64,000 nucleotides of DNA from Paramarasmius palmivorus (Eukaryota; Basidiomycota; Agaricomycetes; Agaricales; Marasmiaceae): positions 186,001 through 250,000 of the forward strand of contig JAYKXP010000056.1 in NCBI GenBank assembly GCA_037176845.1, written 5' to 3'. How positions within the stretch are numbered: position 1 is the stretch's first letter; each line of letters begins with the position of its first letter. Below the pieces are notes generated by a model. The model searched no databases. It had not been told where the DNA came from and worked only from the letters and a program-made list of their open reading frames with translations. The position numbers were made by a program, and so were the translations under genes. Positions 18,268-24,574 of this stretch are shown one piece after another.

Positions 18268-19388
18268 TCAGAATGCTGACAGGTACAATGACAGTTCATC
18301 TTCCGTTTATGGTTACAAATGAGGCGAAGGAATGCTAATAACGCTTATCTCGTGCTGTGTAAGGATCTTCATTCGACAAATCGATTCGAGTCAGCGAGAA
18401 TGGGACGTTTAGCGCCCAGGCGCTATTCACCTGGAACTTCTCGACCACGTGTCAATTCCTCTTGATCCGCAACCACCACGACCACGACCTACCTATTCCT
18501 TACTCGATAATCGTCCAGCTCATCTATTACTGAACGCTCTAACATAACTCTAGCAGACTCAAGTCCGTAAAATTCCCCTTCAAACGCCTTCTGACCTTGT
18601 CGCTTTTTTATCCCAAGTCCTGGAAGACGCTGATCGATTGTTTAACCTGCAACTGGAGTGCGTTCTGGTATATCTTTGTAATACTCACCTGTTAAATGCA
18701 CTTGACTCTCCCCAACAGAATAACTAGAAACCTGAACGAGCTACTAATGACGGCCATGGTGTCAAGAAGTTCGTTCATTTAGCCTTTTGTGGCCAGCGAA
18801 GAAAACGATCCCAGAAGAATGACAGGTCTCATGAGTCGTCATTTCGCCATGAAGCCATCTTATTGCAACCTTACCATGCGGTTTCCGGGTCCCTTGTTGA
18901 GATAAAAGGGGGCGAAGCTTTCACTTACATCGTCAGAAATTACCCATACTCAACATGCTCCGTCGAGTCGCTCTTATAACAGGCGCAGCTCAAGGCATCG
19001 GTAAAGCGATTGCCCTTCGCCTCGCCAATGAAGGCTTTGATATTGCAATTAACGACATTCGAGCAAAATCCGGACAGCTGGGAAGTGTCGCAGAAACCAT
19101 CATGGGCCTTGGTCGTCGTGTGGACGTCGTACCCGCTGATGTCTCCGTCGAGAAAGATGTGCAGGGCATGATTGGTGAAACTGTTGAAAAGCTTGGGAGT
19201 TTGGATGTCGTAAGTGTTGTCGACCCATCCAGAACGTACAGCTCACACATGCCAGATGGTGGCAAACGCCGCGATTGCCACGGCGGGATCGGTGACATCC
19301 AGTTGGTACATGTATTGTGATTGAGGTATCGAGGGCTTACTTCTATCTTATAGCGTCCGTTCATGACTGGGACAAGACCTTTGAAGTC

Positions 19389-21274
19389 TATACCGTTCAA
19401 AACGCTCAAAAATTATTTTTGAGTGTATACATGCAAAGGTCATATAAATATACATATATGAAACTTTTTTTTTGCCGAAAGCACATACACGTTTTCACGA
19501 CATTAGCGACATACATCACCATGCAAATCATTCACTCAACACTCAATTGCACACGCACACACATCACTAGTCTCAGACATCTATTCTCAATTTCTCATGC
19601 ACATCTAGCCATTGAGTAAAAGGCATTTATTATCATATCATATATGTATGTACATAGTTCCGTTAATCTACTTATCGACAAACTAAATAGTATGTAGCTA
19701 AAGACTTGGGGGGTGGTGGATTATTGAATATTAGAAATGATGGAATTGAGTATGGATGTTGAATGGTTGCAGGGTATCGGAAATGGTAGGAAGGTGGCAT
19801 GAAGGTAGACGCGGAGATGTCGAGAACGTCGAGGGAATCATAGGATAGAGTGTTGAGTCGCAGAGCAACACGGAATTGATGTGGATGGAGTTGTTGAGGA
19901 TGCTGGATGACGAGGGAAGCAATTGGAAGCATTTAGTGTTGAGAGAGGCATTGGGAGCATTGGGAAAAGGTATCGGGAGTGTCGAAGGGTGTCGAAGGGT
20001 GTCGAAGGGAGTGCTAGATGATGGGGGAAGTCAAGGGTCTGTGAGAATTCCTGATGAGCTGGCGGCGCCGTAAAACTTGGGCGCTCCGCGCAGCATGTAG
20101 GCCTGGACCCGGACCGGTACTTCGGTAATTGCCTTGTGACGTGAAAATACTCGGTATTTCTGATTCATTCAGCAGCCCAGAGCAGCCCTTGCGCTTCAAG
20201 CTGCTGCAACTTCAAGAAGACGCAGTCGAAAACCAAGGCGCTAAAGTCCGATGGGAAAAAATTGGCGCCCTATTGACGCCGGAACAGTGTCGCACTACTA
20301 TGATGTTCTGAATGCTGTAGACAAGCTTCTTTCAGGCTCCGGCAGAACTTATTTCACATATTTTGCAAAGATTATTGGAAAAACAGTTTAAATCCCGGGT
20401 CTGAAAGATACTACCCGTTAAATATTTAACATGCCATTCTGATGCCAGCGCTAAGCCCGCGCTAATGACAAGAACTTGAGTTGGCCAAGTAAATTTAATA
20501 TTACGTCCCAACCTAAAACGTGAGCGGAGCGCCCAAGTTTTACGGCGCCGCCAGCTCATCAGAAATTCTCACGGGCCCTTGACTTCTTCCCCCATCATCT
20601 GGGAGCCTTTTCAACACCTCCGACAGCTCTTGACACCCTCTTAACGCTCCTCCTCACGCTTGCCTCAATCCTCAACCCCTCTGATAACTCCCTTCAACAA
20701 CCCCCGAAACATTGAAGCCCGTAACAACTCTCCTCGATATCCCCCTCGACACTCAGTTTACAATGATCCAATCAATACTGTTTGTTCTTCCGAAACCCCC
20801 AACACTCATGCCCCACTCTTTATAGTTCCCTTGATGCCCTCAACACTTCTTCCACGTTTATCTTAATCCTACCCTCAATAATTTTGCAACCATTAGTGAT
20901 TCTCAGCGTCTGTGCTTTGTTTATTATTTGTGAGATTCTGAACCAGCCTTCCAAGTCGTAGCTACTATATAGTTTGTTGATATCACCTTGTATGTAATTG
21001 ATACAATAATACATGCCTTTATACAGAGATGGAAACTGTAACACTGACCAGAGATGTGCACGAGAACAGATCTGTCATGTGAATGAAATGCGTGTGTGAA
21101 CAGTTGAGTAAATGAATTGGTATGGTGATGGTGACGTATGTGTGTGTGTGTGTACGCGCATAAGCAAGTCTCTGTATGTATATACTTCGGGACAAATATT
21201 GTGTGTGTATATCTACATGAGCATTGCTGTGTGTATACCTTCAAAAATAATTTTTGAGTGTTTTGAACGGTATA
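19389..21274. mobile_element. Non-autonomous foldback/long-TIR DNA transposon inserted in SDR copy A
   Basis: The ends are inverted repeats: 34 bases at 19389-19422 match the reverse complement of 21241-21274 with one mismatch (TATACCGTTCAAAAC at the tip). Inverted similarity continues, more diverged, for several hundred bases on each side. A second very well conserved inverted pair lies near the centre (20031-20089 with 20524-20582, 59 bases, 3 mismatches), leaving a loop of about 430 bases. The insertion is flanked by GAAGTC at 19383-19388 and 21275-21280, a 6-base target duplication; moving the element ends out by one base would give a 4-base AAGT duplication instead. The uninterrupted copy B shows the empty site. 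No transposase-like frame is present, so it must have been moved by an element elsewhere. Confidence 0.9.
19981..20009. repeat. Three tandem copies of a 10-base repeat inside the element arm
   Basis: GTCGAAGGGT is repeated three times (the last copy ends GGGA). It lies in the left arm of the foldback element; G-rich near-repeats continue on both sides. Confidence 0.8.
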
Positions 21275-22373
21275 GAAGTCAATGTTCGAGGAGTCTTCCT
21301 ATGCTATAAGTATGCAGCGAAGCAAATGATTGAGCAGGGTAGAGGTGGAAGAATCATCGGGGCTTCTTCGGCTGGGGGCAAACAAGGTGTGTGTGACCTT
21401 TTCTTTCAGTTTCATTATAAACTAAGCCATACTTCGCAGGATTGCCGGGCGTGGCTGCTTACACTTCATCCAAGTTTGCCATTAGAGGATTGACTCAATC
21501 TGCGGGTAAGCATTGGTGCAAATAACTATGCTCGACAACTCATCCCTGGCACCCTTTGGCCTAGCTCTTGAGCTAGGGAAGTATAACATCACAGTCAACA
21601 CGTATGCCCCCGGTGCGTCGCAACCTCTCGCGTTTGATTCAATGTTGACTTCATCAGGCTAATCTAGGTTGTATCAATACGAACATGTGTGCGTTCACTT
21701 GACTGAATAATGAATACTATGACATGGCTGAGGCATAACAGTCTCAGTTATATCTTCCTGTCCTGATATCGACCTGGAAGTGAGCTCCTTCCCAGTTTGC
21801 ATACCGTCACTTTTCTAAGCCGTATTCGTACCAGGATATCAGAATAAAGTTACTGACTCAGAGAATAGGACAGCCGGCGGATATAGCAAGTGTAGTTGCA
21901 TATCTTGCATCCGACGAGGCCCATTTTATCACTGGTGTGTTTCTTGTTGGTTTCGAGATATCATACTGATCTCCATCACGGTCGCAGGACAAAGTGTAAG
22001 TAGAGAGTATCGCTCTTCATCAGAACTGTTCTCATGGTATCTATAGGTGTCTGTCGACGGAGGATTTATCTTGTCCTGATGCCATTGAACACACGAACGC
22101 CATGTCTTCCTGGCCAGTGAATACTTGATATTTATAGAACATGGTAGTTTGGCATGTCCATAGTTCTCTAAACGATGTATTTCACCTGTCGCAAGGCACG
22201 GGCACGTTAGCAACCTCGTCGAGCTATATCTCATCGTTTACAGATCAACTGATGTTGGCGCACTCACTCCAGTCGAGTGCGCTATTATTGCAGGTGAACA
22301 AATGCTTTATTTATTGAACATTCTCTTAACCGAGTCGTAAGAAACCTACATACAAAACCCAGAACGAACTGTG

Positions 22374-23358: not shown

Positions 23359-24574
23359 ATGCTCCGTCGAGTCGCTCTTATAACAGGCGCAGCTCAAGGC
23401 ATCGGTAAAGCGATTGCCCTTCGCCTCGCCAAGGAAGGCTTTGATATTGCAATTAACGACATTCGAGCAAAATCTGGACAGCTGGGAAGTGTCGCAGAAA
23501 CCATCATGGGCCTTGGTCGTCGCGTGGACGTCGTACCCGCTGATGTCTCCGTCGAGAAAGATGTTCAGGGCATGATTGGTGAAACTGTTGAAAAGCTTGG
23601 CAGTTTGGATGTGGTAAGTGTTGTCGAATTATCCAGCACGTAATGTTCACACATGCCAGATGGTGGCGAACGCCGCAATCCCCACGGTGGGATCGGTGAC
23701 ATCCAGTTGGTACATGTATCACGATTGAGGAATCAAGAGCTTAGTTCCATCTTACAGCATCCGTTCATGACTGGGACAAGACCTTTGAGATCAATGTTCG
23801 AGGAGTCTTCCTGTGCTATAAGTATGCAGCGAAGCAAATGATTGAGCAGGGTAGAGGTGGAAGAATCATCGGGGCTTCTTCGGCTGGAGGCAAACAAGGT
23901 GTGTATGATTTTTTCCTTTCACTGGTCTCATTATAAACTAAGCCATACTTTATAGGCTTCCCTGGTGTGGCTGCTTACTCGGCATCCAAGTTTGCCGTTA
24001 GAGGATTGACTCAATCTGCAGGTAAGAAGTGATGCAAATACCTATCCTCGACAAATCATCTCTGGTACCCTTCGGTCTAGCTCTTGAGTTAGGGAAGTAC
24101 AACATCACAGTCAACACGTATGCCCCCGGTGCGTCGCAACCTCTCGTGCTTGATTCAATGTTGACTTCATCAGGTTAATCTAGGTGCCATCAATACGGAT
24201 ATGTGTGCGTTCACTTGACTGAATAATGAATATGACCTGGCTGAGGCATAACAGTATCAGTTTTATCCTCCTGTCCTGATATCGACGTGGAAGTGAGCTC
24301 CTTGCCAATTTGCATACCGTCACTTTCCTAAGCCGCAGAACAAAGTTAGCGACTCAGAGAATAGGTCAGCCGGCGGATATAGCAAGTGTCGTTGCGTATC
24401 TGGCATCCGACGAGGCCCATTTTATCACTGGTGTGTTTCTTGTTGGTTTTGAGATATCATGCTGATTTCACCACGTTCGCAGGGCAAAGTGTAAGTAGAG
24501 AGTATCGCTCTTCATCAGAACTGTTCTCATGGTATCTGTAGGTGTCTGTCGACGGAGGACTTGTCTTGTCCTGA
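23359..24574 (+). CDS. Short-chain dehydrogenase/reductase, acetoin/diacetyl reductase-like (copy B, intact)
   Basis: Exons 23359-23613, 23660-23705, 23758-23898, 23956-24021, 24081-24128 and 24184-24204, then further small exons to the stop at 24572-24574, give a full classical SDR of roughly 265 residues. Visible are the cofactor glycine motif TGAAQGIG, DVV-MVANAA (here ANAA replaces the usual NNAG), the catalytic Ser in GASSAGGKQG, the catalytic YSASK, and the C-terminal FITGQSVSVDGGLVLS. GLTQSA followed by ITVNTYAPG resembles bacterial (S)-acetoin-forming diacetyl reductases, but the true substrate is unknown. The intron positions are the same as in the SDR genes at 43374 and 45920. It lies next to, and converges with, the MFS transporter, and is a tandem duplicate of the disrupted copy A. 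Confidence 0.9.

Follow-up and report, generated by a model that had tools for sequence, protein, structure and literature searches.

A probable IS3EU-type foldback element in one of two tandem SDR genes of Paramarasmius palmivorus, and the inverted centres of its closest relatives

Several described transposons resemble parts of the element reported here. Tetris, a non-autonomous foldback element of Drosophila virilis, has long inverted arms around a variable, non-coding middle, and only the terminal part of its terminal inverted repeats (TIRs) is common with another element, presumably a single autonomous partner (PMC4079207). Galileo, also from Drosophila, combines long TIRs with sequence exchange among copies, mismatched target-site duplications (TSDs) and copies whose internal region stems from another subfamily (PMC3573991). 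In Wolbachia, recombination between the two TIRs of one insertion sequence turns its inside round, as recorded for 9% of the IS loci studied (PMC3004938). IS3EU elements are described, in the sections of the source used here, as having TA..TA ends, TIRs longer than 30 bp, usually a 6-bp TSD, and an integrase-type DDE transposase (PMC10045372). Finally, some fungal transposons carry beside their transposase a TET/JBP dioxygenase with an HxD..H motif and a TET fold (PMC12730594).

The present element, 1886 bp long, lies in a window of 64,000 nucleotides (contig JAYKXP010000056.1, positions 186,001 to 250,000) and shares features with each of these systems. Like Tetris, it has long inverted arms and a non-coding, variable middle, and shares only its termini with a larger partner; the arms of Tetris, however, contain ~220-bp tandem repeats, and no inversion of the middle is mentioned in the portion of its description drawn upon (PMC4079207). 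Galileo belongs to the P superfamily and makes a 7-bp TSD, whereas in the present family the inversion of the centre occurs in situ, between copies of an inner block (PMC3573991). The Wolbachia case is bacterial and concerns the element ends, while ours is fungal and concerns the inner block (PMC3004938). With the IS3EU elements as they are described it shares TA..TA ends, a 6-bp TSD, TIRs of more than 30 bp and, in its larger relatives, an integrase-type DDE transposase; the window element departs from them in lacking a transposase of its own, in its long foldback arms and in the inverted block at their inner ends (PMC10045372). Titles and abstracts yielded no foldback or non-autonomous IS3EU element from fungi, subscription papers lying mostly outside this coverage. 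Our reading, to which we assign a probability of roughly 0.88, is that an IS3EU-type foldback element, moved in trans, struck one SDR gene after a tandem duplication, and that the centres of such elements flip by way of their inner blocks.

The element, its target and its family

Exon 3 of SDR copy A contains the 1886-bp insert between exact GAAGTC repeats (Table 1), length and flanks being those given by the original prediction. The sequence is GACCTTTGAGATCAATGTTCG in SDR copy B and GACCTTTGAAGTC-insert-GAAGTCAATGTTCG in copy A, so that the empty site can be read off directly; copy B had been named as the uninterrupted site, and it does carry a single 6-base site at this place. With the insert set aside, the two copies can be aligned over ~2.3 kb. 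According to the by-eye gene model the insertion is in frame, GAAGTC occupying nt 331-336 of the CDS in phase 0. Translation into the element would continue for 78 codons from GAA up to a stop ending at 19619, which precedes codon 155, where the SDR active-site motif reads YTSSK in copy A and YSASK in copy B. Because the stop comes ahead of this motif, copy A has probably lost its function and would yield no working enzyme unless the insert were spliced out; no in-frame GT-AG pair was seen at the very borders of the insert.

Table 1. Features of the insertion locus (positions in the window) and of the dioxygenase genes of two larger relatives (positions in the named locus)
Feature	Position	Strand	Basis or remark
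Start codon, SDR copy A	18955..18957	+	by-eye gene model
Exon 3, SDR copy A	19354..21386	+	by-eye model: 19354-19388 + 21281-21386, minus element and one TSD
Left target-site duplication GAAGTC	19383..19388		read from sequence
Foldback element, 1886 bp (most likely non-autonomous, IS3EU-type)	19389..21274		
Left TIR, starts TATACCGTTC	19389..19432	+	common to 9.1-kb transposase-bearing elements
Palindrome CTCAAAAATTATTTTTGAG within left TIR, candidate transposase-binding site	19405..19423		sequence reading; 12-nt self-inverted arms
Left arm	19433..20001		diverged inverted copy of right arm
Left conserved inner block	20002..20096	+	nhmmer; site of centre-inversion switch
Variable centre	20097..20519		inverted in nearest relative L011
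Right conserved inner block	20520..20614	-	nhmmer
Right arm	20615..21230		
Right TIR	21231..21274	-	40/44 bases match left TIR
Right target-site duplication GAAGTC	21275..21280		read from sequence
Start codon, SDR copy B (uninterrupted tandem copy)	23359..23361	+	
Empty target site, SDR copy B	23787..23792	+	GAGATC opposite copy A GAAGTC
TET-like dioxygenase gene, inside/beside transposase-bearing element	L009 4704-5441	+	
TET-like dioxygenase gene, inside/beside transposase-bearing element	L061 6883-7632	-	

The predicted inverted ends of 34 bases with one mismatch were recovered, and the match extends beyond them (Table 1). Compared as inverted copies, the whole arms of the window element are 0.643 identical, against 0.451 for the best of 10 shuffles; for the arm middles alone the values are 0.520 and 0.469, a narrow margin. 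Inverted-copy arms of ~700 bp were present in all seven elements tested (identity 0.618-0.776, with a maximum of 0.478 among 10 shuffles per element; middles alone, 0.515-0.703 against at most 0.471), which upholds the description of a foldback-type insertion, and the window element has both the long inverted arms and the non-coding middle of a foldback. No convincing coding capacity was found in it, as had been claimed: among the listed ORFs that lie entirely within it the longest has 106 aa, none of seven ORFs scanned has a Pfam match over the cut-off (a single match, at E 0.032, is under its cut-off), and Rfam gave no match at gathering score. When the first 1000 bases, a stretch made up mainly of one arm, were folded as DNA, no signal emerged (z -0.61). 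Simple MITEs are short elements, typically a few hundred bp in length; both the 1886 bp and the structure of the window element speak against such an assignment, in line with the earlier view, and the only MITE-sized copy is L012 (474 bp).

Other copies with the same ends, for which a search had been proposed, are present. Allowing up to 3 mismatches, the 68.3-Mb genome contains 22 instances of the 24-base end and 0 of a reversed-pattern control; by position the ends resolve into 10 inverted pairs, with 2 left single. The 10 complete elements with common ends measure 474 to 9111 bp; likeness among the ends is strong over 37-44 bp, and on the right side a weaker one extends to ~130 bp. Consistent 6-base target repeats, also to be looked for, were found in part: an exact 6-bp TSD flanks six of the 10 complete copies (the window element, L009, L012, L014, L016 and L020), the chance of one exact 6-base match being ~0.00025, while the other four (L010, L011, L013 and L017) have none, although they possess the same termini as the rest. 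Recombination between copies could plausibly account for this absence, given that the flanks of chimeric Galileo copies are reported not to match (PMC3573991). In the 3.4-kb copy L020, part of the centre (~2300-2900) is a long G/C-run minisatellite, and an additional inner inverted pair is present. The right arm of L020 is closer to the left arm of L016 than to its right arm (290 vs 40 bits); L020 may carry two left-type arms.

Inner blocks and inverted centres

The centre of the element had been described as tightly conserved. Conservation resides instead in a ~95-bp inverted block to either side, the centre itself being variable among copies: between the window element and L011, identity is 93 and 95% in the blocks, 84 and 85% in the arms and 73% in the centre. 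Using nhmmer, the block was detected in 10 elements, in both arms of nine; it is absent from L009, L010, L061 and L062, and a genome search found no transposase-bearing copy with a conserved inner block. The block is kept across subfamilies whose arms hardly align, which may reflect exchange among elements, a role in transposition or a dedicated recombination site. Of two other origins considered, a coding remnant was rejected and a nested transposon judged unlikely. The core does have one open frame, yet the outer part carries indels not divisible by three, and the substitutions among copies are mixed in the alignment. Against a second, nested transposon with the blocks as its TIRs stands the fact that no flanking duplication was noticed, that the outer edge of the block fades without an abrupt stop, and that all 15 genome matches of the block fall within elements already listed.

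Blocks were compared in 18 rows, after three had been dropped (one L017 arm without an anchor word and two overlapping L019 fragments). For the centres, nine elements were cut into arms (minus the first 110 bases), block and centre, and all 36 pairs were scored; borders were set by hand where no end was found, on the right of L015 and on both sides of L019. In all three most similar pairs the centre is inverted relative to the arms. The arms of the window element and L011 match in parallel (851 bits, against 70 when swapped) and their centres in inverted orientation (286 vs 0); those of L014 and L015 match swapped (1324 vs 387) with centres in the same orientation (488 vs 0); those of L016 and L017 match in parallel (619 vs 409) with inverted centres (279 vs 0). 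The fourth closest pair, L013/L014, displays no inversion (417 vs 281; centre in the same orientation, 194). Inversion is thus common for copies of this age, though not necessarily favoured, since under random orientation three out of three would arise by chance 1 time in 8.

The switch in orientation falls inside the inner block. For the window element and L011, parallel columns give way to inverted ones within ~40 columns over which the four arms do not differ; for L014/L015 the interval is ~100 columns, and for L016/L017 the switch is poorly resolved, being marked by single stray columns. Errors of assembly could in principle mimic such a pattern, since the short inverted repeats that are near-identical within L016 and within L013 can mislead an assembler, and the centres of L014, L015 and L016, whose blocks are near-identical within the element, may have been misassembled. 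Yet the two blocks of the window copy are only 0.85 identical, with ~40 identical bases, which renders an assembly flip unlikely there, and the three pairs are concordant, so that we regard an artefact as improbable. A little less probable again is a dedicated site-specific recombinase that would flip the centre at the block core in place of general recombination: the tight switch in the window/L011 pair, in what is also the best conserved part across the 18 block sequences, is what such an enzyme might leave, but homologous recombination likewise prefers identical stretches, and neither the ~100-bp interval of L014/L015 nor the blurred switch of L016/L017 points to a defined site.

The inversions would be explained most simply if the inner blocks recombined with each other, or if the template switched from one to the other in the course of gap repair. 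Two inverted arms of ~700 bp flank a short centre in this foldback structure, and the ~95-bp blocks at their inner ends would let the arms recombine, turning the centre round and at the same time keeping the two blocks of one element alike. The arms of one element are most alike in L016 (0.98), L013 (0.96), L020 (0.94) and L019 (0.84), and in these four the two blocks of the element are also mutually closest, which is not the case in the window element or in L014; this is the pattern expected of occasional exchange between arms.

Timing of the insertion and a candidate mover

Between SDR copies A and B, dS is 0.163, dN 0.026 and dN/dS 0.16 over the 192 codons of the by-eye gene model, and across these codons copy A, freed of the insert, has no stop or frameshift. 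This divergence, together with the intactness of copy A apart from the insert, argues that the insertion was probably late relative to the tandem duplication, and so supports the proposed order, duplication before insertion. It is very unlikely that the element was there before the duplication and was then lost precisely from copy B: GAGATC in copy B differs from GAAGTC at two bases, so the targets are not identical, but copy B has a single 6-base site without a footprint, and a copy A otherwise undamaged in 192 codons at this dS fits a late arrival. In the favoured order, an IS3EU-type non-autonomous transposon would have landed in exon 3 of copy A after the duplication, made the 6-bp target duplication and broken the gene.

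A candidate for the autonomous relative that the original prediction had called for was found in the 9.1-kb element L009 (contig C148), which carries an rva_4 transposase. L009 is 9111 bp long with the TSD GAAACA; L010 (C77), 98.5% identical to it, is 9102 bp long and has no TSD, so that only L009 is cleanly bounded. The first 37 bases of both exactly equal the left end of the window element. Integrase-core exons of rva_4 (PF24764) exceed the Pfam cut-off on the minus strand of C148 and C77. The L009 transposase contains the motifs WHVDGHHK, RADRGKEN and RIERLW, with D, D and E present; each of its exons is open by itself, but joining exons 1 and 2 as modelled breaks the frame. No HHCC-type Pfam match was obtained in the scanned exons of this transposase type, and its nearest named animal relative is an uncharacterized protein of Actinia tenebrosa.

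Two further loci carry related genes. L061 (C47) is a diverged relative that tblastx aligns colinearly with L009 across the transposase and the dioxygenase as well as at least one further ORF; it begins TATGG, and a second end was looked for and not found. L062 (C118, 2470-8871) is a 6402-bp rva_4 element with the TSD AGGGCA, a TATGAG start and TIRs of 383 bp that are 91% identical, and no dioxygenase was seen among its ORFs. The further ORF occupies matching places in L009 (8648-9136, +) and L061 (3108-3710, -), with 44% identity over 127 aa in tblastx and no Pfam match over the cut-off. Separately, the rva_4 sites C13:329823-330382 and C199:63008-63567 have near-equal scores and equal frame lengths, and are possibly a recent duplicate or haplotype copy.

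The TAT..ATA ends, the 6-bp TSD and the rva_4 transposase of its relatives make a non-autonomous foldback element of IS3EU type the most likely identity of the window insert. TAT..ATA termini, and hence the TA..TA of IS3EU, occur in 11 of the 11 complete elements examined, and L062 joins the six copies with a 6-bp duplication; the DDE integrase-type transposase is found in C148 and C77, the window element itself having none. The TATGG of L061 agrees with the TAYGG..CCRTA ends given for IS3EU of Pucciniales, whereas the 9.1-kb relative departs from them with TATACC (PMC10045372, PMC12730594). The ends common to the window element and the L009-type elements suggest that the integrase-type enzyme of the C148/C77 relatives most likely moved the former, which lacks a transposase, in trans. 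Dada and Polinton relatives also make 6-bp TSDs, and TSD length alone does not decide a superfamily. That the insert is a foldback of such another superfamily, its likeness to the ends of rva_4 elements being convergent, is nevertheless far-fetched in view of the exact 37-base common end, the TSD-bounded transposase carrier L009 and the combination of TA..TA ends with a 6-bp TSD stated for IS3EU (PMC10045372).

A TET-like dioxygenase in the larger elements

For the dioxygenase encoded in or beside the transposase-bearing elements (Table 1), the genome contains 114 matches, including 13 close ones. A structure model based on 69 sequences predicts a TET-type fold; 11 mostly partial sequences gave a poor model (pLDDT 45.7). 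The alignment of 69 rows contains an HxD..H iron triad with a downstream Arg: among rows with a residue at the position, H193 and D195 are present in 65/65, H246 in 67/67 and R290, which may bind 2-oxoglutarate, in 67/68. The HxE of PE-type TET/JBP proteins is absent from this alignment, HxD standing in its place. As regards the AG type, no close sequence relation to CcTet emerged, neither protein P0001 nor the 69-row profile matching the CcTet chain at E <= 10. As to the PU type, which is related in sequence to rust-fungus proteins, no Pucciniales name occurs among the named rows of the 120 listed of 145 dioxygenase matches. Near a dioxygenase copy on C13, a CxC6 cysteine cluster of the KDZ-transposase-associated kind (L071, 153-692, +) suggests that such genes also occur in KDZ-type surroundings.

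The gene shares with the TET/JBP genes of fungal transposons its place beside a transposase, the HxD..H motif and the TET fold, and differs in its IS3EU-type carrier, in having HxD and not the HxE of the PE type, and in finding no sequence match with CcTet, the close relative of the AG type; the Agaricomycotina carriers named in the part of the source used are Kyakuja, Zisupton, EnSpm, Plavaka and Helitron2, with IS3EU not among them (PMC12730594). The same source reports an alpha-kinase for all its TET+ IS3EU families; the remaining L009 ORFs that were scanned matched no Pfam family, though introns could hide exons, and on this evidence L009 does not display the Pucciniales layout of a dioxygenase between the transposase and the alpha-kinase gene (PMC12730594).

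More speculatively, and in our estimation doubtful, the inner site may serve recombination that both flips the centre and keeps the arms alike, while the TET-like dioxygenase, of unnamed type, carried by an Agaricales IS3EU mover may demethylate the whole family, its parasites included.

The locus offers a fully readable case, from a mushroom, of a probable IS3EU-type non-autonomous element, with target, empty site, borders, relatives and a candidate source of transposase. With inversion seen repeatedly within a eukaryotic transposon, and mapped to a block, the cause of foldback inversion becomes testable; the family is also linked to a transposon that carries a TET-like dioxygenase gene, of a type thought to aid escape from silencing by methylation.
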